A program made the position numbers and the translations under genes. From positions 1 through 35,401 of the forward strand of contig JAGWYB010000012.1 of NCBI GenBank assembly GCA_018969585.1: a stretch of DNA of 35,401 bases. Direction: 5' to 3'. Below are positions 2 to 34,050 of the stretch, piece after piece; the first letter of the stretch is position 1, and every line of letters begins with the position of its first letter. The notes under the pieces were generated by a model. It was not told the origin of the DNA, did no database searches, and was given only the letters and a program-made list of their open reading frames with translations. This stretch comes from Actinomycetales bacterium. GTDB lineage: Bacteria > Actinomycetota > Actinomycetes > Nanopelagicales > Nanopelagicaceae.

Positions 2-499
2 CTCTTTGGTGCAATCTTGCTCTGGACCGCCTATAAATTAATCACCGAAGATCCAGATGAAGATGAGTGGCAAGAGAATCGAATCATTACCGCGCTCCGT
101 AAGCGCGGTCTCTCTACATTTTCACTTGCGTTAGTTGCACTTGGCACAACTGATTTACTCTTTGCGCTCGATTCAATCCCGGCAATCTTTGGTTTGACAC
201 GCGATCCATATATTGTCTTTATGGCAAACGCCTTTGCTCTTATGGGACTTCGCCAACTCTATTTTCTGGTAGGAATTCTCTTGAAGCGCCTGGTATATCT
301 CTCTAAAGGTTTATCAATTGTCCTTGGATTTATCGGCATAAAATTGATTATTGAAGCTCTTCACGGAATTGGTATTCACGAAGCGTTTGGCTACAAGATT
401 CCACACGTATCACTTGCAGTATCGCTAGGTGTGATTATCTCTTCACTTGCAGTTACAACGGTGATTAGTTTGCGCCAGAAACCAGGCGTAATTAATTAA
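2..499 (+). CDS. TerC family integral membrane protein (5' truncated by window edge)
   Basis: The reading frame is open to the left edge, so the true start lies outside the window; the track's first residue is an internal TTG. The visible C-terminal part has TerC/Alx-family features: the 'FALDSIPAIFG' segment, in which an acidic residue lies in a membrane helix, then 'MANAFALMGLRQLYFL', with about four or five hydrophobic helices in view. Family members are inner-membrane proteins linked to metal ion (manganese) export and tellurite resistance. Which ion this one moves cannot be told. Its stop codon overlaps that of the convergent whiB-like gene by four bases, leaving no room for an intergenic terminator. 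Confidence 0.93.
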   Translation, partial: LFGAILLWTAYKLITEDPDEDEWQENRIITALRKRGLSTFSLALVALGTTDLLFALDSIPAIFGLTRDPYIVFMANAFALMGLRQLYFLVGILLKRLVYLSKGLSIVLGFIGIKLIIEALHGIGIHEAFGYKIPHVSLAVSLGVIISSLAVTTVISLRQKPGVIN

Positions 500-798
500 G
501 CGCTGAAGCTATGTGCCTGACGAGTTGCTTTACTGATAATTTCCAAGCGCTCATCTTCAGTTAAACCGCCCCAGATTCCGTAAGGCTCTTGCGCTGCAAG
601 GGCGTGTGCGCGGCACTGTGCGATTACCGGGCAAGACGCGCAGACTGCCTTCGCTGCAAGTTCGCGCGCCCTACGCCTTGGTCCACGTTCGCCATCTGGA
701 TGGAAGAACATCTCAGTCGGCAGAGATCTGCATGCGCCCTCGTACTGCCACTCCCAATTACTTGCGACTGGCTTTGGTAGGCGGGTCATCTCGGTCAT
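496..798 (-). CDS. WhiB family iron-sulfur transcriptional regulator, WhiD/WhiB3-like
   Basis: A 100-residue Wbl protein. Four cysteines at about 23, 53, 56 and 62 follow the C-x29-C-x2-C-x5-C spacing that binds a [4Fe-4S] cluster. 'GIWGG' and the basic C-terminal region follow, used in this family to contact sigma factor and DNA. 'WEWQ..GACR' and 'FFHPDGERG' resemble Streptomyces WhiD and mycobacterial WhiB3 more than WhiB1 or WhiB2. I chose the ATG at 798 (MTEMTRLP) because it matches the usual WhiD N-terminus and has a leaderless promoter directly in front; ATG 822 is an alternative. The 252-residue ORF in the track is this gene plus upstream noncoding frame. It is divergent from the MerR/B12 gene. 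Homologues respond to redox state or nitric oxide; its targets here are unknown. Confidence 0.93.
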   Translation of the reverse strand: MTEMTRLPKPVASNWEWQYEGACRSLPTEMFFHPDGERGPRRRARELAAKAVCASCPVIAQCRAHALAAQEPYGIWGGLTEDERLEIISKATRQAHSFSA

Positions 799-804
799 GG
801 GGAA

Positions 805-833
805 ACCATACAATCGCGCCATAAGTTGTTCAA
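805..833 (-). promoter_or_regulatory. Leaderless promoter of the WhiD-like gene
   Basis: On the minus strand TTGAAC (828-833) is followed after 17 nt by TATGGT (805-810), then 6 nt, then the ATG at 798. Transcription would begin at or next to the A of the ATG, so no ribosome binding site is needed, and none is seen. Confidence 0.55.
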
Positions 834-884
834 GTACCTTCTTTTCAAGATGCCATCGTGGCGCGCTTAGGTCAGGATTGGGGT

Positions 885-1762
885 ATGACTGAGAGCACAT
901 CTCTGACGGTGGCTGCGGTAGCCCGCCGCCTAGGCGTCGCTCCAGCAACCTTAAGGACTTGGGACCGCCGTTACGGCTTAGGCCCATCTGAACATAGCTC
1001 GGGCGAACATCGTCGCTATAGCGCCACTGATCTGGCGCGATTGACCCTGATGCGAAAACTAGTGATCTCAGGAGTTTCTCCGGCGGAGGCAGCACAGCGC
1101 GCTCTCTCCTTTGAAGGTTCGGAGAGCGATGGGACTCGAGCGGTTGAACGAGAGATAAAAGTTCGCGAAGAGCTCGTTGAGACCCTTTATCGAGCCGCCC
1201 ATGCTTATGACCGATCGTTTGTTGAAGAGTTATTGCGAACTGAAATTTCCTCAAGTGGAATTACTTCGACATGGAATGAGGTAATAGTTCCGCTGCTAAT
1301 TATGTTGGGTGATGAATGGGCAGATCAAGGCACTGGCATTGAGACTGAACACATGGTGAGCGAAATTATCAAGCGACTTCTTCATGCAAATCATGAGAAT
1401 GTAACTAATCCAATAAACGCCCGCCCGGTACTTCTTGCATGTATCGGCGAAGAGATGCATTCACTTCCGCTACATGCTCTCGCAGCGGCGCTCTCCGAGA
1501 GAAATATTCAGACTCAATTTTTAGGTGCGCGAACACCAATCGAAGCAATCAGCGCAATCGTGAAGCGTTCTGCGCCACCAGCGGTATTTCTCTGGGCCCA
1601 ATTAAATAAAAATGGCGACCCAGATATCTTGGCAGAGTTACCAAATGTCAGACCTGCGCCAAGGATTGTTATCGGTGGACGCGGCTGGGGAACATCTGAT
1701 CCAAAGAGCGCGGTTTATGTCGAAAATCTTGTTGAAGCTTGTGAGGAAATCCAACGGGCAGT

Positions 1763-1772
<10 letters not shown>
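885..1772 (+). CDS. MerR-type HTH regulator with cobalamin-binding domain (CarH/LitR-like)
   Basis: A 295-residue protein. Residues about 8-75 form a MerR helix-turn-helix ('VARRLGVAPATLRTWDRRYGL'). A four-helix plus Rossmann B12-binding module follows. W145, nine residues, then E155-H156 reproduces the W-x9-EH motif that CarH photoreceptors use around the adenosyl group. E190-M-H192 fits the ExH motif that supplies the lower axial histidine, although the usual following glycine is a proline here. CarH-type proteins repress in the dark with adenosylcobalamin bound and release DNA in light. That role is inference here, because no carotenoid or other light-response gene is in the window. I preferred ATG 885 over the track start at 858 because the HTH alignment begins just after it. 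The gene is divergent from whiB across 86 nt. Confidence 0.87.
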
Positions 1773-4042
<2,270 letters not shown>

Positions 4043-14412: not shown

Positions 14413-15627
14413 ATGTCAAAGATAAAGGTAGTGGGTACTGTCGTTGAACTAGATGGCGACGAGATGACGCGAATTATCTGGGACTTCATCAAAAAGCAAT
14501 TAATCCTCCCTTATCTTGATATCAATCTTGATTACTATGATCTTGGAATTGAACATCGCGATGCCACAAATGACCAGGTAACTATCGATTGCGCTAATGC
14601 GATAAAGAAGCATGGAGTCGGCGTTAAATGCGCAACTATCACTCCTGACGAGGCTCGAGTAAAAGAATTCAATCTAAAACAGATGTGGAAATCACCAAAT
14701 GGCACAATTCGAAATATTCTCGGCGGCGTAATCTTCCGTGAGCCAATCATTATTAAGAACGTTCCAAGGTTGATTCCACATTGGAGTAAACCGATTGTTA
14801 TCGGCCGTCACGCCTTTGGTGATCAATACCGAGCAACAGATTTCAAAGTTCCAGGTCCAGGAAAATTAACCGTAACCTTCACTCCTAGCGATGGTTCAGC
14901 TCCGATGGAGTTTAATGTCTTTGATTTCCCTGGCTCTGGCGTAGCGATGACTATGTATAACCTCGATGAGTCAATACGGGATTTTGCTCGCGCTTCATTT
15001 AACTATGGAATTTCACGTAAGTATCCAGTTTATCTATCAACAAAAAATACAATTTTGAAAGCTTATGATGGTCGATTCAAGGATATCTTTGCGGAAGTAT
15101 TTGAAAGTGAATTCAAATCTAAATTTAAAGAGCTTGGACTTGAGTATGACCATCGATTAATCGATGACATGGTTGCCACTTCGCTGCGTTGGGAGGGCGG
15201 ATATATCTGGGCCTGTAAGAATTACGATGGCGATGTACAGAGCGATACCGTTGCACAAGGTTATGGATCACTTGGTTTGATGACTTCGGTATTAATGACT
15301 CCAGACGGCAAGACCGTCGAAGCTGAAGCGGCGCATGGAACGGTTACACGCCACTATCGCGATCACCAAGCCGGTAAAGCGACTTCTACAAATCCGATCG
15401 CATCAATCTTTGCTTGGACACAAGGTCTACAACATCGTGCCAAATTAGATAACACGCCAGAAGTTGCAAATTTCGCAAAATCTCTCGAACAAGTATGTAT
15501 CGAGACGGTTGAGAGCGGAAAGATGACTAAAGACTTAGCGTTGCTAATAGGCAACGATGCACCATGGCTAAACACTCAAGAGTTTCTCGCCGCAATCGAC
15601 GAGAATCTCAAGAAGAAACAGAGTTAG
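14413..15627 (+). CDS. icd: NADP-dependent isocitrate dehydrogenase, eukaryote-like dimeric type
   Basis: A 404-residue enzyme that oxidises isocitrate to 2-oxoglutarate and makes NADPH. Motifs of the eukaryote-like homodimeric subfamily include '[14 protein letters not shown]', '[11 protein letters not shown]', '[12 protein letters not shown]', '[15 protein letters not shown]' and '[16 protein letters not shown]'. This differs from the large monomeric IDH found in many actinobacteria. GAGGAG lies 6 nt before the ATG, one of the few clear Shine-Dalgarno sites, as expected for a downstream operon gene. Its stop overlaps that of the convergent ABC ATPase by 4 nt. Confidence 0.97.
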
Positions 15628-16703
15628 ATCCGCTCTCCGTTGGTTGCGCTGAAGAGATGAATTGCATCGCTCTTGGCCGAAACAGTTACATTCTGGCCTG
15701 ATTTAGGTGGCGACTTTGGATCCCAACGCACAATAACTTGGGCATTCTCATCGCTAGCATTATTGAATCTAACTGAGCTATCAATCGGCTTTCCATATAC
15801 AAAGGCATCTGCACCAAGTTCCTCAACAACTTCTACCTGAATCTCAAAACCAGTTGTGGCTGGCATAAATCCTTCGGGGCGAATTCCAACAATTACAGAG
15901 CTACCCGCGCTGGCAGGAACATCAATTTCGAGATGTCCAAGTTTTGCCTTACCGCCAGAAACCGGAGCAACTAATAGATTCATGGCAGGTGAGCCGATAA
16001 ATCCGGCGACAAATGCATTTGCGGGGCGATCATAAAGATTTCTTGGGGTATCAACCTGCTGGAGTAATCCATCCTTAAGTACAGCAACTCGATCACCCAT
16101 GGTCATAGCTTCAACCTGATCATGAGTTACATAGACCGTGGTAATTCCGAGACGGCGTTGTAACGCAGCAATCTGCGTTCTAGTCGCAACGCGTAATTTT
16201 GCATCAAGATTAGAGAGCGGTTCGTCCATCAAAAATACTTGTGGCTCACGAACAATCGCGCGACCCATAGCAACTCGTTGGCGCTGTCCACCAGAGAGCG
16301 CTTTTGGTTTACGTTCTAAATATGGTTCCAAATCCAATAGTTTGGCAGCTTCAAGCACTCTACGATCGCGTTCTTCTTTTGCGACGCCTGCGATCTTTAG
16401 AGCAAATCCCATATTCTCAGCAACAGTCATATGTGGATAGAGCGCATAAGATTGAAAGACCATTGCGATATCTCGATCTTTTGGCGCCACATTTGTTACA
16501 TCACGATCACCGATAAAAATTGCACCGTTATCAATCTCTTCTAAACCAGCGAGCATGCGAAGAGAGGTTGATTTTCCGCAACCAGATGGGCCAACTAAAA
16601 CTAAAAACTCGCCATCGTTAACTGTCAGGTTTAATTTATCTACAGCGGGAGAAGTGGTTCCGGGATAGATGCGAGAGGCATCTTTAAATACGACTGAAGC
16701 CAT
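15624..16703 (-). CDS. Sugar ABC transporter ATP-binding protein, MsiK/UgpC/MalK type
   Basis: A 359-residue ATPase of the CUT1 carbohydrate importers. Walker A is 'GPSGCGKST' near residue 38, the signature is '[15 protein letters not shown]', Walker B is '[16 protein letters not shown]' and the H-loop is '[12 protein letters not shown]'. A C-terminal TOBE regulatory domain is present but shorter than in MalK. No permease or binding protein is adjacent. It may be a shared ATPase serving several sugar importers, as MsiK does in Streptomyces; that is inference. GGAGAAGGA precedes the ATG. A near-palindrome at 16719-16736 lies just upstream. Databases often label such proteins UgpC without evidence for glycerol phosphate. 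Confidence 0.95.
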
Positions 16704-16718
16704 TTTTTCTTCCTTCTC

Positions 16719-16736
16719 CGGGCAGGTACGTGCCCG
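16719..16736. promoter_or_regulatory. 18-bp near-palindrome upstream of the sugar ABC ATPase gene (possible operator)
   Basis: CGGGCA and TGCCCG arms surround a GTAC centre; only one symmetric pair fails. It lies 16-33 nt before the ATPase start codon, in the 84-nt divergent gap with the CNNM/CorC gene. No U-tract follows on either strand, so an operator or 5'-leader hairpin is more likely than a terminator. The regulator is unknown. Confidence 0.35.
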
Positions 16737-16787
16737 ACGGTCCGTTGGATGAAGTAAGCGAGCGCAAGGCTAGGTCAGGAGCGCGAG

Positions 16788-19821: not shown

Positions 19822-20236
19822 GGAATAACTCCGGTATCTCTAGGTGTGGAAATTCTTCGCGCATGGTTACAGATTTGCCAAGTTTCATCTTTGAAAATGG
19901 CGGAGTAAGAGCGCATAAGGCTAATGACCAGGCACCGTTAGGTTGAGCTGCCATCCAAGTTTTTGCCGGAACTCGATATGAGAAATTTCCAGATTCTCTA
20001 AATAGTTCGGTTGTGAGCAATTTACCGGATTCAATTGTGAAAAGAGTTATAGGCGAACCAGCGAGATGAACCCATAGTTCTGGTTCATCAAGAATATGCC
20101 AAGCCGAAAAATCTGGGTCTCTCATCATGAAATAAATAGCGTTGCTCTCAGCATCGCGATAGATCGGGCTCCATAACCCGCCTTCGCCCTCGAGGGGCTC
20201 AAGCTTTAAACTCTTAATTAATGCTTCGGGATTCAT
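19814..20236 (-). CDS. DUF985 / cupin_5 family protein
   Basis: A 140-residue small beta-barrel protein. 'EALIKSLKLEPLEGEGGLWSPIYRD', 'NAIYFMM', 'SAWHILDEPELWVHLAGSPITLF' (each quoted in part) and 'MAAQPNGAWSLALCALTPPF' follow the DUF985 (cupin_5) pattern; functions in this family are mostly unknown. The ATG at 20236 is chosen over the track's TTG at 20239: it shares one base with the stop of the amidohydrolase gene (TGATG), a coupled arrangement. The usual 'HPEGGYFRE' motif appears as 'EPLEGEGGLWSP', so the ligand site may have drifted. Confidence 0.82.
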   Translation of the reverse strand: MNPEALIKSLKLEPLEGEGGLWSPIYRDAESNAIYFMMRDPDFSAWHILDEPELWVHLAGSPITLFTIESGKLLTTELFRESGNFSYRVPAKTWMAAQPNGAWSLALCALTPPFSKMKLGKSVTMREEFPHLEIPELFHE

Positions 20237-21528
20237 CAAAGTTGTGCGATTCGATTAGTAACGTCTTTTTGCAGCTGAGAAAAATCCAATTTAGTGGAGC
20301 GATAATCTTCAACAACTTGTTCGCCATCAACAAATACATCACTTACATCAGATCGTCCAGCAGCAAAAACTAATTGCGCAAATAGATTATGAATCGGAAT
20401 TAAATGTGGACTATTTAATTCAACTGCGATGATATCCGCTCGTTTTCCAACCTCTAAACTTCCAATCGAATCGGCCATGCCAAGTCCTCGGGCACCTTCA
20501 ATTGTGGCCATTCGGAAAATTCGCTCGGCATCTAAATTTTGCGGCCCACTATTTTGGGCAATTAAGTAGCCCGCCAAGCGCATAACTGGCCACATATCTA
20601 AATCATTGCTGGAGGAGCAACCATCTGTGCCAAGAGCAACGGTAATTCCGTGCTTGAGATATTTGGTGACATCGGCGATGCCGCTAGCAAGTTTTAAATT
20701 GCTGCCTGGACAATGCGCAACCGCCGCATTACCACTCATCTCTGCGAGGTCAGAGTCACTCAAGTGCACGCCGTGCCCATATACACAACGTCGATTGAGC
20801 AGACCTGAATCTTTAAGAATGTCGGTCGGAGTTCTTGAGTATCGCGTTGCTACATCTTCATTTTCTCGGTTGTTTTCAGAGATATGGATATGAATATTGG
20901 CATTAATCTCATTAGCAAGAGCTGCAATCTCGGATAGATGATCCGGAGAGCAGGTATAAGTTGCGTGCGGCATCAAATAAATCGGAACTTTTGGCCCACC
21001 AATTTTCCCTAATTTATCTGGCCAACTTTTTGCGAATTCAATTCGCGCAGGCCACTCCATTCCATCTAAACCAGGAAAGTCGAAGAAGATAGGACCCGCT
21101 ACATGCCGTAAACCAGCAGCTACTGCGCCGCGATGAGTATCTTCTGGGAAAAGATACATATCCAGCGTTGTTGTCGTTCCACTAAGCAGCGCCTCTAGCG
21201 CGCCGAGTTTGGTTCCTAGTTCGGCAGTAGAACCATCCATAATCGCGCCCTCAGCGGCCCAAACTCTCTCTAAGAAACCTTGTAGATCGACACCTTCTGC
21301 GTATCCGCGCAAAAGCGTCATCGCTAAATGGGTATGAGTATTTACCAAACCAGGAGCAATTAATTTCCCACTCGCGTCATAATTTATGGCGCCATTTAGT
21401 TGGGACTTGGATATTTCGACTATCTCGCCAGCTCGTATTCCAATTGAATAATTCTCAAGTACTTCACCAGAGCTATTACATGTTACGAGATATCTAGCAT
21501 TGTTAATTGCTAGATCTAACTCAGGCAT
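20236..21528 (-). CDS. Amidohydrolase, probable 5'-methylthioadenosine/S-adenosylhomocysteine/adenosine deaminase
   Basis: A 430-residue metal-dependent deaminase of the TRZ/ATZ (MtaD) group. Metal ligands are His65 and His67 in 'NTHTHL', His in 'MPHATYTCSPDHL', His-Ile-Ser-Glu in 'HIHISENN', 'YGHGVHL', and Asp in 'LGTDGCSSSNDLDMW'. Relatives remove the 6-amino group from the adenine of MTA, SAH, adenosine or 5'-deoxyadenosine. The exact substrate cannot be read by eye, and guanine or cytosine-type deaminases are alternatives. It overlaps the MTIP-like phosphorylase gene by 8 nt, which fits a deaminate-then-phosphorolyse route. ATG 21528 matches the family start; the track's upstream extension does not. 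Confidence 0.88.
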   Translation of the reverse strand: MPELDLAINNARYLVTCNSSGEVLENYSIGIRAGEIVEISKSQLNGAINYDASGKLIAPGLVNTHTHLAMTLLRGYAEGVDLQGFLERVWAAEGAIMDGSTAELGTKLGALEALLSGTTTTLDMYLFPEDTHRGAVAAGLRHVAGPIFFDFPGLDGMEWPARIEFAKSWPDKLGKIGGPKVPIYLMPHATYTCSPDHLSEIAALANEINANIHIHISENNRENEDVATRYSRTPTDILKDSGLLNRRCVYGHGVHLSDSDLAEMSGNAAVAHCPGSNLKLASGIADVTKYLKHGITVALGTDGCSSSNDLDMWPVMRLAGYLIAQNSGPQNLDAERIFRMATIEGARGLGMADSIGSLEVGKRADIIAVELNSPHLIPIHNLFAQLVFAAGRSDVSDVFVDGEQVVEDYRSTKLDFSQLQKDVTNRIAQL

Positions 21529-22270
21529 ATATCGACACCAATTCGGGAAGGGCCGCTTCAATAACACTTAAAGTCTTAGCCTTACCTTGAACTAGTACAT
21601 CTTTAATATCATCCTCGCTGATCTCACCATCAAATAAGCCGGCGGCCGGATTTACGATCAGCGCAATGGCAGCGTAAGGAACTCCTATTTCTCTAGCTAG
21701 AGCAGCTTCTGGACAGCCAGTCATTCCAACGACAGTTGCGCCTGCAAGTGCGGCAAACCGAATCTCAGCGGGAGTCTCAAATCTCGGGCCATTAAAACCT
21801 GCGTAAATACCACCTTCTCTAAGCGGGATTCCTATTTTCTTAGCTCCATTGCTTAGCGCTGTCCGCACAGTTTTTGAATAGACATTTGTCATATCTATAT
21901 GTCGCACGCCATCTTCGCCATCAAAAAAAGTACTTATTCGTCCGGAAGTGAAGTCAACGAAATCTTCAATTAACGTGAGGTCACCTGGGGCAAGAGTGGT
22001 ATCGACTCCGCCGACTACATTAATCGCGATAATCGCGGAGACTTCTTGATCTTTTAACGCCTGGATATTCGCTCGATAATTTATTTTATGCGGGGGGATT
22101 GAGTGACCACCGCCGTGTCTTGTAAGAAAAACTAATTCAGCGCCTTGCCATTGACCGATAGTAATTTCCGCTTCTCCATAACGAGTATTAATTCGTTTAG
22201 GAGAATTTCCAGATAGAGCTGGCAGGTCATAAAAACCAGTCCCAGCTAGGAGCGCAATCCGGCAACTCAA
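21521..22270 (-). CDS. MTA/MTI phosphorylase family, probable S-methyl-5'-thioinosine phosphorylase
   Basis: A 249-residue nucleoside phosphorylase of the MTAP/PNP family. The phosphate-site 'FLTRHGGGHSIPPHKINYRA' (in part), 'INVVGG', 'GPRFETPAEIR' and 'GMTGCPEAALARE' are visible. Canonical MTA phosphorylases carry an adenine-recognition Asp after 'VTDYD'; here the segment reads 'ALIVNPAAG' with an Asn. That is the pattern of MTI/hypoxanthine-type enzymes such as Pseudomonas MTIP, and suits the adjacent deaminase. The product would be methylthioribose 1-phosphate (or 5-deoxyribose or ribose 1-phosphate). The start is TTG at 22270, whose TTGA overlaps the ATPase stop; no other start fits the family N-terminus. 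Confidence 0.88.
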   Translation of the reverse strand: MSCRIALLAGTGFYDLPALSGNSPKRINTRYGEAEITIGQWQGAELVFLTRHGGGHSIPPHKINYRANIQALKDQEVSAIIAINVVGGVDTTLAPGDLTLIEDFVDFTSGRISTFFDGEDGVRHIDMTNVYSKTVRTALSNGAKKIGIPLREGGIYAGFNGPRFETPAEIRFAALAGATVVGMTGCPEAALAREIGVPYAAIALIVNPAAGLFDGEISEDDIKDVLVQGKAKTLSVIEAALPELVSIYA

Positions 22271-23775
22271 GCGTTTGAACCTGCCATCAACCGGCCAATT
22301 TCGGCTCGGTCAGCGCTCTTCGAATCAAATGTCGCCACGATTTTGCCACCATAGATAACAGCTATGCGATCAGAAAGCGATAGAACTTCATCTAATTCGG
22401 CAGATACCAAAAGAATTGCTGATCCTTTGTCCCGGGCAGCAATCAACTGATTATGGATAAATTCTATTGATCCAACATCGACACCGCGCGTGGGTTGAGC
22501 GGCTACAACTACTTTTTTGTTTTGACTCAATTCTCGAGCAACTACCGTTTTCTGCTTATTTCCACCGGAGAGTGAACTTGCGGGTAAATTGGGCGACGGA
22601 GTTCGTATGTCATAACTTGCTACCAAAGTGATTCCATTTTTTGCAATTGCATCATGATTTCTTATCCAGCCTTTTGCAAAAGGCGCTTTATCAAAGGTGT
22701 TTAAAATTAAATTATCCGCAATTGAATAACTTGAAACAAGCCCATGCTTCTCGCGATCCTCTGGGATATGTGAAATACCTGCGTCATGCGCTGCACGTGG
22801 CGAGAGATTCGGTAGCTCAACCCCTTCAATGAATACAGTCCCACCGACTCGATTTCTCATACCGCAGATTGCTTCAACTAATTCACGTTGACCATTTCCC
22901 TCAACACCAGCTACTCCGAGAATTTCACCGGACCTTACTTCTAGCGAGAGACCGCGGACCGCTTCCAATTTTCGATCATCTAACACTTGTAAATCAGTTA
23001 CTTTAAGGGCGGGGGCAGCTGGCTTTGCTTGTGATTTTTCTACTCGCAAAACAACTTCTCTACCAACCATCATCTGAGCAAGTTGCGCCTCTCCGCTTTG
23101 CTTGGGGGAAGTAGTTCCAACTAATTTACCATTGCGCAATACAACGACTCGGTCTGCTACCGCCATTACTTCACGTAATTTATGAGTGATGAAAAGAATT
23201 CCAACGCCACGTTTTGCAAGATTGCGTAGCACATCAAGTAGTTCGTCGGTTTCCTGCGGTGTCAAAACCGCTGTTGGTTCATCAAGAATCAAAAGTTTAA
23301 CGTCGCGTCGCAGAGCCTTAAGAATTTCAACTCGTTGTGCCATTCCGACTGGTAAATCCTCGATAATTGCATCTGGATCTACATCAAGACCATATCTCTC
23401 AGAAATAGCCTTTGCAGCGTTGCGAGCTTCTTTCATCTGAATCACACCAAGTTTTCTTGGCTCATCACCAAGTATCAGGTTTTCAGTAACGCTCATGACT
23501 GGAACTAACTGGAAATGCTGATGAACCATGCCAATTCCATTAGCGATAGCGCTTGCTGTATCACCTGGTTCAATAACTTTCCCATTGATTCGAATTACAC
23601 CCGAGTCAGGCTTTACGAGACCAAAAACTGATTTCACTAGAGTCGATTTGCCAGCACCATTTTCTCCGAGAAGCGCAACGATTTCGCCAGGGGCAACTTC
23701 CAATGAAATTTCGTCATTTGCCTTAACTTGTCCAAAACTCTTACTAACTTTTTCTATCTCCAGGAGATTTGTCAC
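22267..23775 (-). CDS. Nucleoside (BMP-type) ABC importer, double ATP-binding protein
   Basis: A 502-residue protein with two ABC domains, like NupA/YufO of nucleoside importers and RbsA. The first domain has 'GENGAGKST', a degenerate signature 'LPVGMAQRVEIL' and 'LLILDEPTAVL'. The second has a degenerate Walker A 'GVEGNGQRE', a good signature 'LSGGNKQK' and 'VVVAAQPTRGVD', in which the catalytic Glu is Gln. This asymmetry is normal for the family: one composite site is active. The start is GTG 23775, with AAGGAG 5 nt ahead, and overlaps the permease stop by 4 nt. Confidence 0.95.
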   Translation of the reverse strand: MTNLLEIEKVSKSFGQVKANDEISLEVAPGEIVALLGENGAGKSTLVKSVFGLVKPDSGVIRINGKVIEPGDTASAIANGIGMVHQHFQLVPVMSVTENLILGDEPRKLGVIQMKEARNAAKAISERYGLDVDPDAIIEDLPVGMAQRVEILKALRRDVKLLILDEPTAVLTPQETDELLDVLRNLAKRGVGILFITHKLREVMAVADRVVVLRNGKLVGTTSPKQSGEAQLAQMMVGREVVLRVEKSQAKPAAPALKVTDLQVLDDRKLEAVRGLSLEVRSGEILGVAGVEGNGQRELVEAICGMRNRVGGTVFIEGVELPNLSPRAAHDAGISHIPEDREKHGLVSSYSIADNLILNTFDKAPFAKGWIRNHDAIAKNGITLVASYDIRTPSPNLPASSLSGGNKQKTVVARELSQNKKVVVAAQPTRGVDVGSIEFIHNQLIAARDKGSAILLVSAELDEVLSLSDRIAVIYGGKIVATFDSKSADRAEIGRLMAGSNA

Positions 23776-24752
23776 GCTTTCTCCTTCTCGTAAGGAATTC
23801 CTTCTGCGGCCGGAGGACGAACTTTTCCTGCGGAGATTGCAAGAATGACTATCGTTAGAACGTAAGGCAGGATATTTATGAATTGCTGGGGAATCTCGAC
23901 TACCTCATCTATCATCAATTGGCTAGTTACTGCTTGTGCTAAACCAAAGAAAAGTGCCGCAGCAAAAGCGCCGAGTGGATTCCACCTTCCAAAGATCATG
24001 ATGGCAAGAGCTGTAAATCCCTTGCCTGCGGTGAATCCACGTTCGAAAATTCCGACTGCTTCGAGAGACAAATACGCACCAGCGAGACCACCAATTCCAC
24101 CCGCAATGGTTACGTTTATATATCGCAATTTGATTACTGAAACTCCGGCAGTATCTGCGCTGGAAGGATATTCGCCCACCGCACGAGAACGAAGTCCCCA
24201 AGAAGTTTTATAGAGTGCAAACCAGAGGGCAACTACTATAAAGATGCCGAAGTATGTAATTGGACCGTGGAATGAAAGTATTGCGCCAGCAATTGGGATA
24301 TCACTAAGAATTGGAATTTCAATGGGAGAAAGTGTTCCTGCAATTGAATAATTCTGACGGTAAAGGAAAGAGGTAAGGCCTGCTGCCAGTATGTTAAGAA
24401 TTACTCCAGCGATTATTTGATCCATTTTCCACGAAATCGCCATCAGCGCAAGAAGTAATCCCATCATCGACCCAGTGAAAATACCAACTAGCACTCCCAA
24501 AACTGTGTCTTTGAAAATTGCCCCCAAGAAGAAAGCTGTAAACGCGGATATCAACATGGTGCCCTCAATGCCAATATTTACGATTCCGGTTCGTTCGCAC
24601 ATAACGCCAACCATCGCCGCTAATGCCAGAGGTAAAGCAAGTTGGATAGCTGAAAAAGAAACAGAAGTGGCAACTATCCCATTTTGAGCGTAAAAATAAG
24701 CGAAGACTAAAACTAAGCCAACAATGAGTGGATATCGAGTTTTGAGTCTCAT
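23772..24752 (-). CDS. Nucleoside ABC importer permease 2
   Basis: A 326-residue permease of the BPD_transp_2 family with about eight to ten helices. 'LALAAMVGVMCERTGIVNIGIEGTML' (in part) is the family N-terminal motif, and 'AVGEYPSSADTAGVS' with 'AGAYLSLE' marks the coupling region. It pairs with the adjacent permease to form the channel of a nucleoside importer (NupB/NupC or YufP/YufQ type). Its ATG shares one base with the stop of permease 1 (TGATG), and its 3' end overlaps the ATPase gene by 4 nt. Confidence 0.94.
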   Translation of the reverse strand: MRLKTRYPLIVGLVLVFAYFYAQNGIVATSVSFSAIQLALPLALAAMVGVMCERTGIVNIGIEGTMLISAFTAFFLGAIFKDTVLGVLVGIFTGSMMGLLLALMAISWKMDQIIAGVILNILAAGLTSFLYRQNYSIAGTLSPIEIPILSDIPIAGAILSFHGPITYFGIFIVVALWFALYKTSWGLRSRAVGEYPSSADTAGVSVIKLRYINVTIAGGIGGLAGAYLSLEAVGIFERGFTAGKGFTALAIMIFGRWNPLGAFAAALFFGLAQAVTSQLMIDEVVEIPQQFINILPYVLTIVILAISAGKVRPPAAEGIPYEKEKA

Positions 24753-25801
24753 CAGTTACTCCATCCGCTCGTAATCGCAACGTTTTCGTGTCGACGTTTC
24801 AACAAGCGTGCAAGTAGTGGAGCGGTCACAAAAAATAAAATTAATGCAAGTAGTAGATCGACTATTTCTGGAGACACTCCTGTTTTGAATTGAACTGTGG
24901 ATCCCGACGCTCGCATGCCACCAATTAAAATAGCCGCAGGTATGACTCCGAGAGGATTTCCTCGACCAAGAAGAGCTACTGTAATTCCATCAAAGCCAAG
25001 ACCCGCGTTGAAAGCCGGCTCAAATCTTCCTGTGATACTAAGAGTTTCAATTGCGCCTGCGATTCCGGCAATGGAACCACCTACAAGCATGCTCAATATT
25101 GTTACGCGCTTAACTGATATTCCGGCATACCATCCAGCATTACGGTTTCTGCCGATTGTTTCAATGCGAAAGCCCGTCGTTGTATTTCTCAGTAACCACC
25201 AGAGCGCGATAGAGAATGCAATTGCGATGAAGAATCCGAAGGGAAGTCCAAATATGTCAGGGATACGTGCCGAATCTTGAATCGCGGGCGTTCTCGTAAG
25301 CGGCTGATCTGGCTCTTTAAATGGCGTGCTCGCCAAATAGTCGGCAATTGCAATCACCATGCTATTCAGCATGATTGTCGTAATGACCTCATGTACACCG
25401 CGATAAGCCTTAAGGGCTCCTGCGATAAAAGCAACTAGGGCCCCAAAAGTTGCTCCGAACAAAAGTGCTAAAGGAATATGAATCAACGTTGGAAGTCCAA
25501 CAAAGTAATAACCAGCCCAGGCTGAAGCGAGCGCTCCAGAGATGAGCTGTCCTTGGGCGCCGATATTAAATAGGCCAGCTCGAAGGCAGATAGCCACTGC
25601 CAATCCGCTTAAAATTAAAGGTGTCGCTTTTGCAAGCGTTACAGAAATTCCATCAAATGAGAGAAATGCAGTTTCAAATAGGACTTCATATGTGTAAAGC
25701 GGATTAATTCCCTGGACCGCAATCATAATTCCACCAAAAAACATAGCAACCAAAACCGATAGGAGTGGGATTAATACGCCAGAGAGAGGTAATCGCTTCA
25801 T
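24752..25801 (-). CDS. Nucleoside ABC importer permease 1
   Basis: A 349-residue permease with about nine or ten helices. 'AICLRAGLFNIGAQGQ' is the BPD_transp_2 motif, and 'GVHEVITTIMLNSMV' and 'IGRNRNAGWYAGI' form the cytoplasmic coupling helix region. This is the longer partner, as in NupB/YufP. It is separated from bmpA by 82 nt holding a strong hairpin, and has only a weak AGGA ahead. TAGGAT, 9 nt before its ATG, could be a secondary -10 element, but no convincing -35 accompanies it. Confidence 0.94.
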   Translation of the reverse strand: MKRLPLSGVLIPLLSVLVAMFFGGIMIAVQGINPLYTYEVLFETAFLSFDGISVTLAKATPLILSGLAVAICLRAGLFNIGAQGQLISGALASAWAGYYFVGLPTLIHIPLALLFGATFGALVAFIAGALKAYRGVHEVITTIMLNSMVIAIADYLASTPFKEPDQPLTRTPAIQDSARIPDIFGLPFGFFIAIAFSIALWWLLRNTTTGFRIETIGRNRNAGWYAGISVKRVTILSMLVGGSIAGIAGAIETLSITGRFEPAFNAGLGFDGITVALLGRGNPLGVIPAAILIGGMRASGSTVQFKTGVSPEIVDLLLALILFFVTAPLLARLLKRRHENVAITSGWSN

Positions 25802-25814
25802 TCGCCAACTATCC

Positions 25815-25826
25815 TAGTAATTACTA
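25815..25826. repeat. 12-bp perfect palindrome TAGTAATTACTA
   Basis: It lies between the intercistronic hairpin and the start of permease 1. Bases are fully symmetric. It could be a regulator site or an incidental AT palindrome; nothing more can be said. Confidence 0.3.
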
Positions 25827-25832
25827 AGTGAT

Positions 25833-25870
25833 AAAGGAATGGGAGGTGCAAGAGCACCTCCCATTCCTTT
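25833..25870 (-). terminator. Intercistronic hairpin between bmpA and permease 1 (attenuator or mRNA stabiliser)
   Basis: A perfect 17-bp inverted repeat (AAAGGAATGGGAGGTGC and its complement) with a 4-nt loop begins 13 nt after the bmpA stop. The transcript's three terminal Us belong to the stem, and there is no long U-tract on the minus strand. Partial termination or 3'-end protection is therefore likelier than full termination, giving more binding protein than permease. Confidence 0.7.
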
Positions 25871-25883
25871 TCTATTTACTTCC

Positions 25884-26921
25884 TTAGAGTTTCACTCCAG
25901 TTGGTACGGATCCATCTAGTACCTGAGGAGTAATTGCCGCTACCTTGTCTTTGATTTCCTGAGCAATCTTGGAGTCGAAGTCGTGGTAAGGCGCAAGACC
26001 GACTTCACCGAAGAAGTTTCCTCCGGCTATCGATCCATCTTTAGCAGCTTCAATTAGAGCTGCTACACCCTTGTCAATCAACTTCATTGCTGAGGTGACC
26101 AAGCATGGTTGAGCTTCTGGCAAAGTTCCCCATTGATCTGCGTCTACACCGATGCAATATGCACCCGGTGTTTGCGCAATCTGGAGAAGCGCTCCGTTAC
26201 CTGTGTTTCCGCCAGCACCGAAGATCACATCAAAGCCCTGAGAGAGCATCTGCTTTGCAGTTGCTCCACCCCAAGCTGGATCGTTGAATGCGTTATCTGG
26301 AGCGTGGTAGACCAGTTTTGTCTCTGGGTAATCTTTTCCGAGTTCATTAGCAGCGTAAGCAACGCCGTTTCGGAAACCTTCACCGAAGTAACGAACTGGT
26401 GGAACTGTGTCGGTTCCTAGAACCGCACCAGTCTTTCCACTAGTTGTGATTTGTCCCGCGAGATATCCAGCTAAGAAGCCTGCTTTATCTTCAGGGAAAA
26501 CTAGACCAGTCAAATTTGGAACTGCAGCTCCTTGGAACTGGTCAACTCCAATAAATTTGATATCTGGATATTGTGCAGCTGCAGTTGACATCGCTTCGGC
26601 CATCAAGAATCCGACGCCAATAATTACGTTATAACCGTTTTCTGCAAACTGTCCAATGTTTGTTGCATAATCTTTTGGATCAACAGTCTCGATATATTTC
26701 GCGAAACCGCCAACCGCTGTGGCGCCAGCTTGGGCACCTTCCCATGCGGACTGGTTGAAGGACTTGTCATCTACCTTTCCGGTGTCTGTTACAAGACCGA
26801 TGCAGAATGCATTTTCAGAACCGCAATCAGCCTCAGATGTCGCAGAGTCGCTGCTGCAGGCAGCTAATCCGAACAACGCAAGGCTTAACGCTGCGGCGAT
26901 TGCCGCAAGACGCTTTAACAT
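25884..26921 (-). CDS. bmpA: BMP family nucleoside-binding lipoprotein
   Basis: A 345-residue substrate-binding protein. The lipoprotein signal is 'MLKRLAAIAAALSLALFGLAAC', with the lipobox LAAC and Cys22 as lipidation site. The mature BMP/PnrA-like domain has 'GLVTDTGKVDDKSFNQSAWEGA' (in part), 'DQFQG', 'FGAGGNTGNGAL' and 'GVDADQW'. Family members bind purine and pyrimidine nucleosides for ABC import. It is the first gene of the operon and has AGAGGAG 4 nt ahead of the ATG. The spacer upstream holds two palindromes. Confidence 0.95.
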   Translation of the reverse strand: MLKRLAAIAAALSLALFGLAACSSDSATSEADCGSENAFCIGLVTDTGKVDDKSFNQSAWEGAQAGATAVGGFAKYIETVDPKDYATNIGQFAENGYNVIIGVGFLMAEAMSTAAAQYPDIKFIGVDQFQGAAVPNLTGLVFPEDKAGFLAGYLAGQITTSGKTGAVLGTDTVPPVRYFGEGFRNGVAYAANELGKDYPETKLVYHAPDNAFNDPAWGGATAKQMLSQGFDVIFGAGGNTGNGALLQIAQTPGAYCIGVDADQWGTLPEAQPCLVTSAMKLIDKGVAALIEAAKDGSIAGGNFFGEVGLAPYHDFDSKIAQEIKDKVAAITPQVLDGSVPTGVKL

Positions 26922-26940
26922 GTGTCTCCTCTCAAAGTTT

Positions 26941-26956
26941 CTAGCAGAATTGCTAG
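26941..26956. promoter_or_regulatory. Inverted repeat CTAGCA-N4-TGCTAG upstream of bmpA
   Basis: Six-base perfect arms, 20-35 nt before the bmpA ATG. If the promoter proposed at 26966-26994 is right, this element lies at the very 5' end of the transcript, as a second operator or a small leader hairpin. Confidence 0.4.
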
Positions 26957-26965
26957 CTAGTTTTC

Positions 26966-26994
26966 ACTAGAAAATCGATCGATTTATCAACCAA
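26966..26994 (-). promoter_or_regulatory. Possible bmpA promoter with a palindrome in its spacer
   Basis: On the minus strand TTGGTT (26989-26994), a 17-nt spacer and TCTAGT (26966-26971). The spacer contains the 14-bp perfect palindrome AAATCGATCGATTT (26972-26985). A repressor bound there would block RNA polymerase directly. Both hexamers are imperfect. Confidence 0.4.
26972..26985. promoter_or_regulatory. 14-bp perfect palindrome AAATCGATCGATTT, candidate operator of the nucleoside island
   Basis: It is fully symmetric over 14 bases and lies 51-64 nt before bmpA, in the 214-nt divergent gap with mtnA. The rest of that gap (26995-27110) holds no gene or clear signal that I can see. No regulator gene lies in the island, so the binding protein is unknown. 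Confidence 0.45.
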
Positions 26995-27123
26995 TGTGGG
27001 GAGCCATCTGTTGACTGCCGGAATCCTATCTCTCGGGAATTACCTAACTGGAGACGACTCGAACCTGCCCGTGGTCGTTTTCATCACGAATAAGTAACGT
27101 TCCTGAACCTTCAAGGCAAGGTT

Positions 27124-27135
27124 TAGGCTACGAGC
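27124..27135 (+). promoter_or_regulatory. Leaderless -10 element of mtnA
   Basis: TAGGCT (27124-27129) stands exactly 6 nt before the mtnA ATG, and no Shine-Dalgarno is present. I could not find a good -35 at the expected distance. Confidence 0.45.
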
Positions 27136-28146
27136 ATGCGAACCATCGCCTGGCGGGAAGAAAACGGCGGCTTTATCCAATTGCTTGATCAAAGGCGTTT
27201 ACCAGAAAGCGCAACGCAACTTGATGTGACAAGTAATGAAGAGTTAATTAATGCAATTCAAAATCTTGCAGTTCGTGGAGCGCCAGCCCTAGGTGTTGCC
27301 GGCGCACTTGGGGTTGCATTAATCGCGCATAGAGCGGAATCGGAATCTTGGAGTAAAGACGACATCGAACGAGCAATTTCACAACTACGAGAGGCTCGCC
27401 CAACTGCCGTGAATCTTGCTTGGGGCGTTGACTTGGCTAAGGGTCAATTCACGAACGGTCCAGCCGCTGTTCTAAAGCTTGCTCTCAAACTGGCCGAAGA
27501 CGACGCTAAATCTTGTCGTGAAATGGGAAGAATCGGTGCAGATTATTTAATTGAGAAATTAGGTAAAAAGAAACTGCGAATTCTCACCCACTGTAATACC
27601 GGAGCTTTAGCAACTACGGAGTGGGGAACCGCGCTGGGTGTTGTTAGAGAGCTGCACTCTCGCAAATTAATCGAGGAAGTTTTTGCAGACGAAACCCGTC
27701 CGCTACTACAAGGTTCAAGATTGACTGCTTGGGAGTTGGCGCAAGCGGGAATTCCATATCGAATACTTCCAGATGGCGCCGCTGCCAGCGCCCTCTTCTC
27801 CGGATTGATTGATGCGGTGCTTATTGGCGCAGATCGCATCGCAAGAAATGGCGATAGCGCAAATAAAATTGGTTCACTCTCGGTTGCGGTAGCAGCAAGC
27901 CAAGTTGCAGTTCCATTTCTAGTTGTAGCACCTGAATCCACGGTAGATCGCAATATCGAATCTGGCGAGCATATTGAAATTGAATTTCGCTCAGATTCTG
28001 AAGTTACAACTTTTGCAGGCGTAAATATTGCGCCAGCAGGTTCGGAGACTTATAACCCCGCCTTTGATGTGACACCCGCAAGATATATAACCGCTGTGGT
28101 CACAGATAAAAAGGTTTATCGAGTAAAAGATGGCGAAGCGCTATGA
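27136..28146 (+). CDS. mtnA: MtnA family methylthioribose-1-phosphate (or 5-deoxyribose-1-phosphate) isomerase
   Basis: A 336-residue aldose-1-phosphate isomerase of the eIF2B-like family. 'AVRGAPALGV' binds phosphate, Cys153 in 'THCNTGALAT' and Asp233 in 'IGADRIARNGD' are the catalytic pair, and 'YNPAFDVTPARYI' is the C-terminal signature. MtnA turns methylthioribose 1-phosphate into methylthioribulose 1-phosphate; some relatives prefer 5-deoxyribose 1-phosphate. None of the classical methionine salvage genes (mtnB, mtnC, mtnD) follows. Instead its ATGA overlaps an aldolase/dehydrogenase fusion, pointing to carbon disposal via DHAP. It is divergent from the nucleoside importer operon. Confidence 0.94.
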   Translation: MRTIAWREENGGFIQLLDQRRLPESATQLDVTSNEELINAIQNLAVRGAPALGVAGALGVALIAHRAESESWSKDDIERAISQLREARPTAVNLAWGVDLAKGQFTNGPAAVLKLALKLAEDDAKSCREMGRIGADYLIEKLGKKKLRILTHCNTGALATTEWGTALGVVRELHSRKLIEEVFADETRPLLQGSRLTAWELAQAGIPYRILPDGAAASALFSGLIDAVLIGADRIARNGDSANKIGSLSVAVAASQVAVPFLVVAPESTVDRNIESGEHIEIEFRSDSEVTTFAGVNIAPAGSETYNPAFDVTPARYITAVVTDKKVYRVKDGEAL

Positions 28147-30104
28147 GTGAGCTACAAAAATTAGTTGAACGATCTAAGAAACTCGGCGCTGACCAAAATT
28201 TAGTCGTGTACGGAGGTGGAAATACTTCCGCTAAAGGAGAGATAAAAGATCACCTAGGAAGAAATCGAACTGTCCTTTGGGTAAAAGGTTCGGGCGCTGA
28301 TATGCAATATGGAGAAGCCGTGGATTATCCAGCCCTGTATCTCGAAGAGTTAATTGCGCTTCACAAGATGGACAAATTAGATGATGAAACCATGGTTGAT
28401 TACGTAACCAGAGCTTTAGTAGATCCGACCGCACGCCGTCCTTCTATTGAAACGCTTCTCCATGCGTTTTTACCCGCCAGACATATTGATCATGTGCATG
28501 CCGATCTCATTTGCGCATTGACAAATCATGAAGACGGCAAGTCCGCAGTAACGGAAGCGTTGGGCGAAGGATTCGCTTATGTCGATTGGATACGACCGGG
28601 CTTTCAACTATCAAAACTAGTAGGAGAACTCAAAGATTATGAAGGTGTAGTGCTAGCGCACCATGGACTTATTGTTTGGGATGACGATAGTGATAAATGC
28701 TATGAAAAAAACTTAATTGCAGTAGCGAAGGCTAAGTCATATCTGGATTCTCTTAAGAGACCACCTAAAGCTGATTTTAGGCATCAAGATTTGAGTGATT
28801 CTGAAATTCGAGAGTTACTCCTTAAATTGCGGGGCAAGCTCGGAAAGCGCCAAATTCTGCGGACTGATAATCGACTAAGAGCTGTAGCGGATCGACCAGA
28901 TCTTCCAAAAGTTATTGCTAGTGGAACTTCAAGCGCTGATCACATGCTCCGAATCAGGCCTTGGTCTTGTGCTTCTACAGTTGACTCGGTAGATGAATCA
29001 ATAACCAATTATCGAAAACGGTATGCCGAGTATTTTGAAGTAAATCGCTCTCAATTACCACCCGGATACGTTAGCCATGGAAATGATCCTCGAGTATTTC
29101 TTGTTCCAGGGCTAGGAGCAGTCACGGCGGCCACAACAGTTAGTGAAACTAAGATGCTGGCTGATATTGCCTTCCATACCCACTCTGTTGCTGCTTTGGT
29201 CGCAGATAGTTTTGCAAAGCCACGAGCGCTGCCTGATAGTGAAATCTTCGGCTTTGATTACTGGCCTATGGAGCTTTACAAACTAAAGTTAAAACCAAAG
29301 CCAGCGCTTTTGGCGGGTGCAATCTATGTAGTAACAGGCGCAGGAAGTGGGATTGGTCGTGGCATAGCGCTTTATCTCGCAAGTTTAGGTGCAAATTTAA
29401 CGCTTGCTGATCTTGATAAAGCTGGGCTAGACAAGACCGCAAGTGAAATTCGAGAGAGAAAGTTTTCGGAACCACAATTAATTGTTGGTGATCAAAGCGA
29501 TGAATTGAAAGTTCAAGAGACTATTGCGAGCACAATTTCAAACTTTGGTGGATTAGATGGACTTGTGTTAAATGCCGGAATTCCTGTGGCAGGAACACTC
29601 GAAGAACTCTCTATCGATTCATGGCGCAAAGGCTTAGAGGTCAATCTAACTTCGGCATTTCTACTTACTAAATATGGAATGAAAGCGATGCGCACACAAG
29701 GTATGGGAGGTAGTTTGGTTTACATCGCAAGCAAAAATGCGTTTGCTCCGGGAGCTGGATTTGGTGGGTATTCCGTTTCAAAATCAGGAATGATTCAATT
29801 GATGCGAATTGCAGCGTTAGAAGGTGGCGCCGCTGGAATTCGCGCTAATGCGCTAAATCCAGATGCCATCTTTGATAACAGCAAACTCTGGGAGGGTGGC
29901 GTGCGAGAGCAGCGAGCAAAGGAACATGGAGTTAAACCAGAAGAGCTCGAAGATTTTTACGCGAAGCGAAATCTGTTAAAAGTTCATGTTCGCTCCGAGG
30001 ATGTTGCCCGATCAGTTGCCTATCTACTATCAGATGAATCTTCAAGAACTACCGGTTCAGTAATTCCAGTCGATGGTGGCGTAGCAGGAGGATTTCCACG
30101 ATGA
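28143..30104 (+). CDS. Class II aldolase / short-chain dehydrogenase fusion (RhaD-SDR type)
   Basis: A 653-residue two-domain protein. Residues about 1-390 are a class II aldolase/adducin domain: 'GGGNTSAKG' binds phosphate, 'SIETLLHAFLP' carries an acidic residue, and 'HVHADL' and 'LAHHGLIVW' carry zinc-binding histidines. Residues about 394-653 are a classical SDR: 'VVTGAGSGIGRG', 'LNAGIP', 'YIASKNA' and Y-x3-K in 'YSVSK'. Characterised relatives split rhamnulose 1-phosphate into DHAP and lactaldehyde. No rhamnose genes are here. Overlap with mtnA (4 nt) and cdd (4 nt) suggests methylthioribulose or 5-deoxyribulose (or ribulose) 1-phosphate as substrate, with the SDR handling the released aldehyde. 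That substrate is inference. Confidence 0.92.
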   Translation: MSELQKLVERSKKLGADQNLVVYGGGNTSAKGEIKDHLGRNRTVLWVKGSGADMQYGEAVDYPALYLEELIALHKMDKLDDETMVDYVTRALVDPTARRPSIETLLHAFLPARHIDHVHADLICALTNHEDGKSAVTEALGEGFAYVDWIRPGFQLSKLVGELKDYEGVVLAHHGLIVWDDDSDKCYEKNLIAVAKAKSYLDSLKRPPKADFRHQDLSDSEIRELLLKLRGKLGKRQILRTDNRLRAVADRPDLPKVIASGTSSADHMLRIRPWSCASTVDSVDESITNYRKRYAEYFEVNRSQLPPGYVSHGNDPRVFLVPGLGAVTAATTVSETKMLADIAFHTHSVAALVADSFAKPRALPDSEIFGFDYWPMELYKLKLKPKPALLAGAIYVVTGAGSGIGRGIALYLASLGANLTLADLDKAGLDKTASEIRERKFSEPQLIVGDQSDELKVQETIASTISNFGGLDGLVLNAGIPVAGTLEELSIDSWRKGLEVNLTSAFLLTKYGMKAMRTQGMGGSLVYIASKNAFAPGAGFGGYSVSKSGMIQLMRIAALEGGAAGIRANALNPDAIFDNSKLWEGGVREQRAKEHGVKPEELEDFYAKRNLLKVHVRSEDVARSVAYLLSDESSRTTGSVIPVDGGVAGGFPR

Positions 30105-30490
30105 GTTCGATTAATTGGGATAACTTAAAGAGTGAAGCAAAACTAGCAATGGCTAAGGCATATGCTCCGTATTCAAAGTTTCCGGTTGGCGTTGCTGCGC
30201 TAGTAGATGATGGGCGAATTATTAGCGGCTGCAATGTCGAAAATGCCAGTTATGGTTTGACGCTCTGCGCAGAATGTTCGCTCGTTTCCGAATTGATTAT
30301 GAGCGGCGGCGGAAGATTGATTGCTGCAGTTTGTGTGGATAAAAATGGCGACTTACTCTCACCTTGTGGTCGATGTCGGCAATTGCTCTTCGAACATGGC
30401 GGCGAAAAATTAGAGCTACTTACTCCAGAAGGTCCAAAGAGTATGGCTGAAATTCTTCCGTGGGGATTTGGCCCGAAAGATTTGAGTTAA
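30101..30490 (+). CDS. cdd: Cytidine deaminase
   Basis: A 129-residue tetramer-type enzyme that converts (deoxy)cytidine to (deoxy)uridine. Zinc ligands are Cys56 in 'CAE', with proton shuttle Glu58, and Cys89 and Cys92 in 'PCGRC'. 'CNVENASYG' binds the ribose. It lies between the aldolase/SDR gene (ATGA overlap) and deoA (TAATG, 1-nt overlap), so cytidine is deaminated and passed to the pyrimidine phosphorylase. Confidence 0.97.
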   Translation: MSSINWDNLKSEAKLAMAKAYAPYSKFPVGVAALVDDGRIISGCNVENASYGLTLCAECSLVSELIMSGGGRLIAAVCVDKNGDLLSPCGRCRQLLFEHGGEKLELLTPEGPKSMAEILPWGFGPKDLS

Positions 30491-31767
30491 TGAGCGAACC
30501 ATTTGCGGCTGTCGAAATCATCTCTACGAAGAGAGATAGAAATGAATTAACTGATTCTCAAATTGATTGGGTAATTGACGCCTACGTTCGTGGCGTTGTC
30601 GCAGATGAACAGATGTCGGCACTTTTAATGGCCATTCTGTTAAACGGAATGAACTCACGGGAAATTTCACGTTGGACTGATGCCATGATCAATAGCGGTG
30701 AGCGCATGAACTGGAATTCGCTGGCTCGACCGACGGTAGATAAACATTCAACTGGCGGCGTCGGTGACAAAATTACCTTGCCACTTGCACCTTTAGTCGC
30801 TGCGTGTGGCGCAGCGGTCCCACAACTTTCTGGCCGGGGGCTTGGTCATACCGGTGGAACTTTGGACAAAATGGAGGCCATAACTGGTTGGCGCGCTTCA
30901 CTTTCAAATGAAGAGATGCTAAAAGTTTTACAAGATTGTGGCGCCGTAATTTGTGCCGCAGGAAGCGGATTAGCGCCAGCTGATAAGAAACTTTATGCGC
31001 TGCGAGATGTGACAGCGACGGTACAAGCAATTCCACTAATTGCCTCTTCTATTATGAGCAAGAAGATTGCCGAAGGTACAGGAGCGCTCATACTCGATGT
31101 TAAAACTGGAAATGGTGCATTTATGTCTGCGCCGGAACAAGCAAAAGAGTTAGCAAAAACTATGGTTGAACTTGGAAAACGAGCAGGTGTGAAGACTCGC
31201 GCTTTAGTTACCGCTATGGATGTACCACTTGGATTAACCGCTGGAAATGCTCTAGAGGTAAGAGAGTCAATCGAAGTTTTACAAGGTGGTGGCCCGAAAG
31301 ATATTGTTGAACTGACCTTGATCCTTGCTCGAGAGATGCTAGATGCAGCTGGTGTAACTGGAAAAGATCCTGAAGTAGCTCTCCGTGATGGCAGCGCAAT
31401 GGATCATTGGCGCCGTATGGTTTCTGCCCAAGGTGGCGATCCCGATGCACCGTTACCAAAAGCCAAAGAAAAGTTAACTATTAGCGCCGAAGCTAGCGGA
31501 GAAATCTCGACGATGAATGCGCTACAAGTTGGTATCGCCACTTGGAGATTAGGAGCCGGTCGCGAGCGTCAAGGTGAAAAAGTTCAAGCTGGCGCCGGAA
31601 TTGAGATCCACGCAAAACCTGGCGATACCGTAAAAGAAGGATCACCTTTATTCACACTTCATTCAGATGAGCCAGCAAGATTTGAGAGAGCTAAATCGGC
31701 GCTAAGTGGCGCTGTAACATTTGGAAAAGTAGAGCGGTTACCACTTATCGTGGATCGGATCGATTAA
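30490..31767 (+). CDS. deoA: Thymidine/pyrimidine-nucleoside phosphorylase
   Basis: A 425-residue enzyme that releases the base from thymidine, deoxyuridine or uridine, giving (deoxy)ribose 1-phosphate. 'KHSTGGVGDKITLPLAP' is the phosphate-binding signature, followed by 'LSGRGLGHTGGTLDK' and 'MSKKIAEGTGALILDVKTGNG' (in part). ATG 30490 replaces the track's 30460, since it overlaps the cdd stop by one base and matches the family N-terminus. It is the last gene of the mtnA operon and overlaps the convergent ALDH-like gene by 4 nt at the stops. Confidence 0.97.
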   Translation: MSEPFAAVEIISTKRDRNELTDSQIDWVIDAYVRGVVADEQMSALLMAILLNGMNSREISRWTDAMINSGERMNWNSLARPTVDKHSTGGVGDKITLPLAPLVAACGAAVPQLSGRGLGHTGGTLDKMEAITGWRASLSNEEMLKVLQDCGAVICAAGSGLAPADKKLYALRDVTATVQAIPLIASSIMSKKIAEGTGALILDVKTGNGAFMSAPEQAKELAKTMVELGKRAGVKTRALVTAMDVPLGLTAGNALEVRESIEVLQGGGPKDIVELTLILAREMLDAAGVTGKDPEVALRDGSAMDHWRRMVSAQGGDPDAPLPKAKEKLTISAEASGEISTMNALQVGIATWRLGAGRERQGEKVQAGAGIEIHAKPGDTVKEGSPLFTLHSDEPARFERAKSALSGAVTFGKVERLPLIVDRID

Positions 31768-34048: not shown

Positions 34049-34050
34049 AA

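Follow-up and report, generated by a model that had tools for sequence, protein, structure and literature searches.

The closest described relatives of the regulator analysed here are CarH of Thermus thermophilus (TtCarH), the class I LitR proteins of Streptomyces, and CtMerR (8JBS; the SignatureFinder study), a light-responsive MerR-CBD protein. In TtCarH, His132 gives the protein its bis-His light state, and an H132A variant mostly stays tetrameric in the light (PMC10442372), whereas CtMerR, with Arg at the corresponding position, is still light-responsive (PMC11796333). A predictive signature of light response, GxxW, EH, GxxH and GxxxP, has been described as a predictor and not as a strict definition (PMC11796333). 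The published CarH operator repeat is the 11-bp nAnnTnnACAn (PMC8156234), and the control of litS by LitR in response to light in S. coelicolor is described as positive (PMC12705666). In our comparison, the Streptomyces-type members face a LitS-like sigma factor gene and have a photolyase plus SDR gene, or carotenoid-type genes, downstream.

In many lakes no bacteria are more abundant than the acI actinobacteria, which carry rhodopsin; we know of no established account of how they sense light for gene control. The window, by which we mean the whole 35,401-nucleotide stretch of DNA that was analysed, belongs, as contig C21, to a genome of 1.1 Mb and 81% completeness whose named neighbours are Nanopelagicaceae/Planktophila-type actinobacteria of the acI group. 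Its LitR (Table 1) resembles the Streptomyces class I proteins in clade, domain order, W/EH/H contacts and a Glu/Ala residue at the His132 position, as well as in having a divergent regulator gene adjoining it (LitS there, WhiB here). It differs from them in its putative target, which is whiB rather than a sigma factor gene, in the absence of crt, photolyase or SDR neighbours, and in carrying Glu, not Gly, at position 189; overall identity with the plasmid-borne Streptomyces members is 33-38%. With TtCarH the protein shares the fold and the contacts W131/E141/H142/H177, and site 1 matches the CarH operator repeat, but identity is only ~28%, His132 is missing, the gene does not lie beside crt genes, and the spacer holds two separated sites in place of the three tandem 11-bp repeats of Thermus. 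CtMerR, which matches the window LitR over residues 6-242, likewise lacks His132 but has the full GxxW, EH, GxxH, GxxxP signature, of which GxxH reads ExxH in the window.

A maximum-likelihood tree unites the whiB-linked LitR proteins and the Streptomyces LitR-type proteins in one clade (100/99), with the Streptomyces group inside it and Thermus CarH and other paralogues outside, so that the window protein falls with known LitR by placement. Order within the clade is poorly resolved. As to whether whiB linkage marks a single clade, the label requires 5 changes on this tree, and for these reasons we make no claim as to which partner is ancestral. Three LitR relatives (L038, L197 and L240) form a subgroup in which a sigma-factor-like gene lies downstream and the divergent whiB is replaced; in two of them, L038 and L197, the residue equivalent to W145 is Gln, and upstream lies a phytoene-synthase-like gene. 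In a Streptomyces-like genome (G054, locus L042, 3043-4755; photolyase and SDR genes adjoining), the LitR-type gene appears to be split over two frames, by a frameshift or a sequencing error.

Table 1. Positions of the regulator, its domains and contact codons, its neighbours and the spacer elements in the window.
Feature	Position	Strand	Details
LitR/CarH-type regulator	885..1772	+	295 aa; start ATG 885, stop at 1772
MerR winged-helix DNA-binding domain	906..1097	+	residues 8-71; Pfam PF13411 (MerR_1), 5e-16
Four-helix B12-binding_2 domain	1176..1382	+	residues 98-166; Pfam PF02607, 2e-7; has G142-x-x-W145 and E155-H156
Rossmann B12-binding domain	1428..1682	+	residues 182-266; Pfam PF02310, 7e-8; has H192 and G214-xxx-P218
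W145 codon (= TtCarH W131)	1317..1319	+	TtCarH alignment, orthologue comparison
E155-H156 codons (= TtCarH E141-H142)	1347..1352	+	TtCarH alignment, orthologue comparison
H192 codon (= TtCarH H177), predicted lower Co ligand	1458..1460	+	TtCarH alignment, orthologue comparison
whiB, WhiB3/WhiD class (class III Wbl)	496..798	-	four Cys, GIWGG motif
guaB (IMP dehydrogenase), conserved downstream neighbour	1798..2937	+	
28-bp element TACAATCGCGCCATAAGTTGTTCAAGTA, includes whiB promoter spacer	809..836	.	strong conservation between whiB and litR
Site 1 TACTTGAACAA, over whiB -35	826..836	-	5/5 CarH repeat nAnnTnnACAn (PMC8156234)
Site 2 CATCTTGAAAA	842..852	-	4/5 CarH repeat; TTTCAAG core in 24/29 family spacers
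whiB promoter -35 hexamer TTGAAC	828..833	-	
whiB promoter -10 hexamer TATGGT	805..810	-	17 bp from -35; 6 nt before ATG 798 (near-leaderless)

Fold and predicted cofactor contacts of the regulator

The original prediction was that W145-x9-E155-H156 and E190-x-H192, joined to a MerR HTH, match the adenosylcobalamin (AdoCbl) contacts of CarH-type sensors. These residues are present, and the top solved relatives of the open reading frame at 885-1772 are the TtCarH entries 3whp and 5c8d (3e-19; full-length alignment), with which W145, E155-H156 and H192 are in register (Table 1). An AlphaFold model of LitR (45 sequences) has a pLDDT of 85 and CarH as its first PDB fold match; its B12 domain alone compares with that of TtCarH at a TM of 0.83 and an rmsd of 2.6 Å. 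The alignment and the model thus bear out the predicted CarH-type sensor fold with its contact residues. The combination of MerR HTH, B12-binding_2 and B12-binding domains is that of class I LitR/CarH proteins, whose W131, E141, H142 and H177 equivalents are all in place; the score for the NCBIfam TransRegCarH equivalog, 101.9 bits, lies under the 400-bit cut-off. The contact-residue match is not due to chance, since W145, E155, H156 and H192 are all retained in 151 of the 157 distinct whiB-linked orthologues. Losses are few (L246, which reads W-A-H-Y; L060, WERH).

Three of the four elements of the light-response signature are found in LitR (GxxW, EH and GxxxP); the remaining one reads E189-x-x-H192, in a position where seven of the eight Streptomyces LitR-type proteins compared have Gly and one has Asp. 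The equivalent of TtCarH His132 is Ala146, and this column is mostly Glu or Ala in the orthologues. Because Glu/Ala is also found there in the Streptomyces LitR-type proteins compared, His132 is, on alignment, a TtCarH trait and not a family-wide one. With His132 replaced by Ala146, and with the TtCarH H132A variant and CtMerR behaving differently, how photolysis would lead to release of the DNA is the point on which the LitR model is least secure.

Is the cofactor likely to be at hand? The host genome encodes a PduO adenosyltransferase and an AdoCbl-dependent class II ribonucleotide reductase (RNR), and a search of it for a CobA/CobO-type enzyme gave no match. This set of genes indicates that AdoCbl is likely available in the cell, probably from salvaged corrinoid. 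A cobalamin-riboswitch match in the same genome is weak and under the family cut-off. A bacterial rhodopsin is also encoded.

The divergent whiB gene and its spacer

The neighbouring regulator had been called WhiD-like, and its closest solved relative is indeed Mycobacterium tuberculosis WhiB3 (1.2e-30, compared with 3.5e-13 for WhiB1), which, together with four Cys and the G[VI]WGG motif, places it in Wbl class III. The spacer that it was said to share with litR, from whiB ATG 798 to litR ATG 885, is 86 nt long. The order whiB(-) litR(+) guaB guaB3 is kept throughout the family. Among 80 loci from named genomes, a divergent whiB is found in 77 of 77 acI-type loci with room upstream, and guaB lies downstream of litR in 73. 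A further 60 loci from 27 families include 39, from 20 families, with a divergent whiB. At E≤0.001, 52 of the 60 relatives gave a LitR orthologue, though some of these are MerR-domain matches only; at E≤1e-35, orthologues were detected in 95 of the 247 class-level genomes. In the family, one genus has three complete genomes from which litR and this whiB are both missing and in which rhodopsin is kept, which ties the two genes to each other and not to rhodopsin. A link between litR and rhodopsin is not supported, as two genomes (G026 and G029) have litR without rhodopsin and three (G024, G174 and G244) have rhodopsin without litR. We found no description of the whiB-litR pair, or of operator-like sites over this whiB promoter, in the literature searched (an incomplete collection), nor does a review of Wbl proteins speak of any pairing of whiB3/whiD with a MerR or B12 regulator (PMC6282962).

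Elsewhere in the window, an msiK RNA motif (16703-16762, minus strand; Rfam RF01747, 64.6 bits) directly precedes an ABC-transporter ATPase gene (15624-16703, minus strand). From the reading of its open reading frames, the region 20236-34992 is a nucleoside/deoxynucleoside salvage gene run that encodes a BmpA-like binding protein, two permeases, an ATPase, MtnP-, MtnA-, Cdd-, DeoA- and DeoC-like proteins, and aldehyde dehydrogenases.

The 28-bp element in the spacer is nearly invariant in the genus of the window and strongly conserved across the family, and it overlaps the whiB promoter (-35, spacer and -10). The pattern TTGAAC-N17-TANNNT, 6 nt from the start codon, occurs in 24 of 29 family spacers (26 of 38 spacers in all); with the whiB core promoter lying within the element, part of the conservation may be that of the promoter itself. 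The core CTTGAACAAC, allowing ≤2 mismatches, is present upstream of 29 of the 39 deeper divergent LitR-linked whiB genes; of the 26 whiD/whiB3 homologues from LitR-less genomes, only 4 have it (Fisher p 3e-6, with no correction for relatedness). Within one family (f18), the two linked whiB copies have 1 mismatch to site 1, while six unlinked copies have 3-5. The TTTCAAG core of site 2 is expected in 0.6 of the 29 family spacers and is found in 24.

Scanning the window spacer with nAnnTnnACAn gave exactly two places on the whiB strand, 826-836 and 842-852, and two 4/5 matches on the other strand; as a control, the same scan recovers the three tandem repeats of Thermus. A perfect repeat on the whiB strand is found in 26 of 58 linked spacers (5 expected). 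We rejected a simple tandem 11-bp operator, which is not seen in the window spacer. Since sites 1 and 2 are 16 bp apart in the window and their distance varies among relatives, the whiB-litR operator is no plain copy of the Thermus one. The proposal that LitR's own promoter and the divergent whiB are its closest target candidates is consistent with these data: the shared spacer is the best candidate, with conserved sites of which one lies over the whiB -35.

The suggestion that the same site might stand before crt or photolyase genes was not supported: the conserved-element model, searched with stricter filters in more than 40 genomes, gives one strong site in the host genome (81% complete), and it lies at whiB. 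Extra matches to the site 2 pattern in relatives, where examined, are inside coding regions. Neither the element model in the host genome nor the site 2 matches examined in relatives support direct crt or photolyase targets, and with a single strong element at whiB and those extra matches in coding sequence, a relay through WhiB is the more economical explanation. In a relative from another family (G040, contig C13; L066, 1501-1527), a second whiB-type element stands just before an EmrB/DHA2 MFS efflux transporter gene, in this single case a possible extra target.

Proposed control of whiB and competing readings

We infer, with a probability of about 0.6, that this LitR, of class I and dependent on AdoCbl, keeps whiB and probably its own gene repressed in the dark, and that light releases whiB. 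In this model AdoCbl would be held between the four-helix and Rossmann domains: H192 would serve as the lower cobalt ligand, W145 would stack on the adenosyl group, and E155 would form a bond with that group. LitR oligomers carrying AdoCbl would, in the dark, occupy both conserved sites in the whiB-litR spacer, covering the whiB -35 and promoter spacer, so that whiB, and probably litR too, would be repressed. Blue or green light would break the Co-C bond and weaken the oligomer, allowing whiB to be transcribed. WhiB, a predicted Fe-S protein of the WhiB3/WhiD class, would then relay the signal to the genes that it controls, in a way that recalls how LitR acts through the sigma factor LitS in Streptomyces. 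Because LitR is described as a positive light regulator of litS in S. coelicolor (PMC12705666), the sign of whiB regulation could differ.

The same protein might instead report AdoCbl supply, the AdoCbl-bound form repressing whiB when B12 is plentiful, with photolysis incidental. A cell with PduO and a class II RNR and with no CobA/CobO match probably salvages B12, which would then matter for growth, and both the missing His132 and the failure of litR to track rhodopsin (G026 and G029; G024, G174 and G244) are in keeping with such a role. However, the adenosyl-contacting residues of CarH are conserved here as W145 and E155, the nearest characterised members, the LitR proteins, are light sensors, and the Streptomyces LitR-type proteins compared also lack His132; we regard a pure supply sensor as unlikely. 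Somewhat less probable still is that LitR acts elsewhere, the spacer element being bound by another factor (WhiB itself or a sigma/Wbl complex) and the gene pairing being inherited synteny. The element does overlap the whiB -35, spacer and -10, and class III Wbl proteins work together with the primary sigma factor, which touches the -35 through its region 4 (PMC6282962). Yet most whiD/whiB3 homologues in LitR-less genomes have no such element upstream, site 1 matches the CarH consensus, and site 2 lies away from the whiB promoter.

The least probable of these readings, and one that we consider very unlikely, is a regulator of the type of Myxococcus xanthus CarA, which would need no cobalamin to bind DNA and would respond to a partner protein. 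CarA keeps a B12-binding motif and does not need B12 (PMC8156234), and a few orthologues of the window LitR have lost contact residues (L246 and L060), but the adenosyl-contact residues are conserved almost universally, and the immediate neighbours include no gene recognisable as an antirepressor or LOV partner.

As a sensor, the protein is of a known kind, class I LitR, and its putative whiB target is apparently undescribed. The litR-whiB pairing in at least 20 actinobacterial families suggests that light and redox control have long been linked, in a way not described so far. More tentatively, and at somewhat less than even odds, the pair may represent an ancient light circuit of actinobacteria, with an AdoCbl photoreceptor in direct control of a WhiB3/WhiD-class regulator that contains Fe-S and responds to O2/NO. 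Most acI lineages would have retained this circuit, and in Streptomyces the sensor would have been turned to other targets, a sigma factor and carotenoids. For the acI group, the conserved LitR-whiB pair points to a specific path, open to experimental test, by which light could reach a redox regulator. It also suggests that the textbook role of LitR in controlling carotenoids is one branch of a wider actinobacterial light response.
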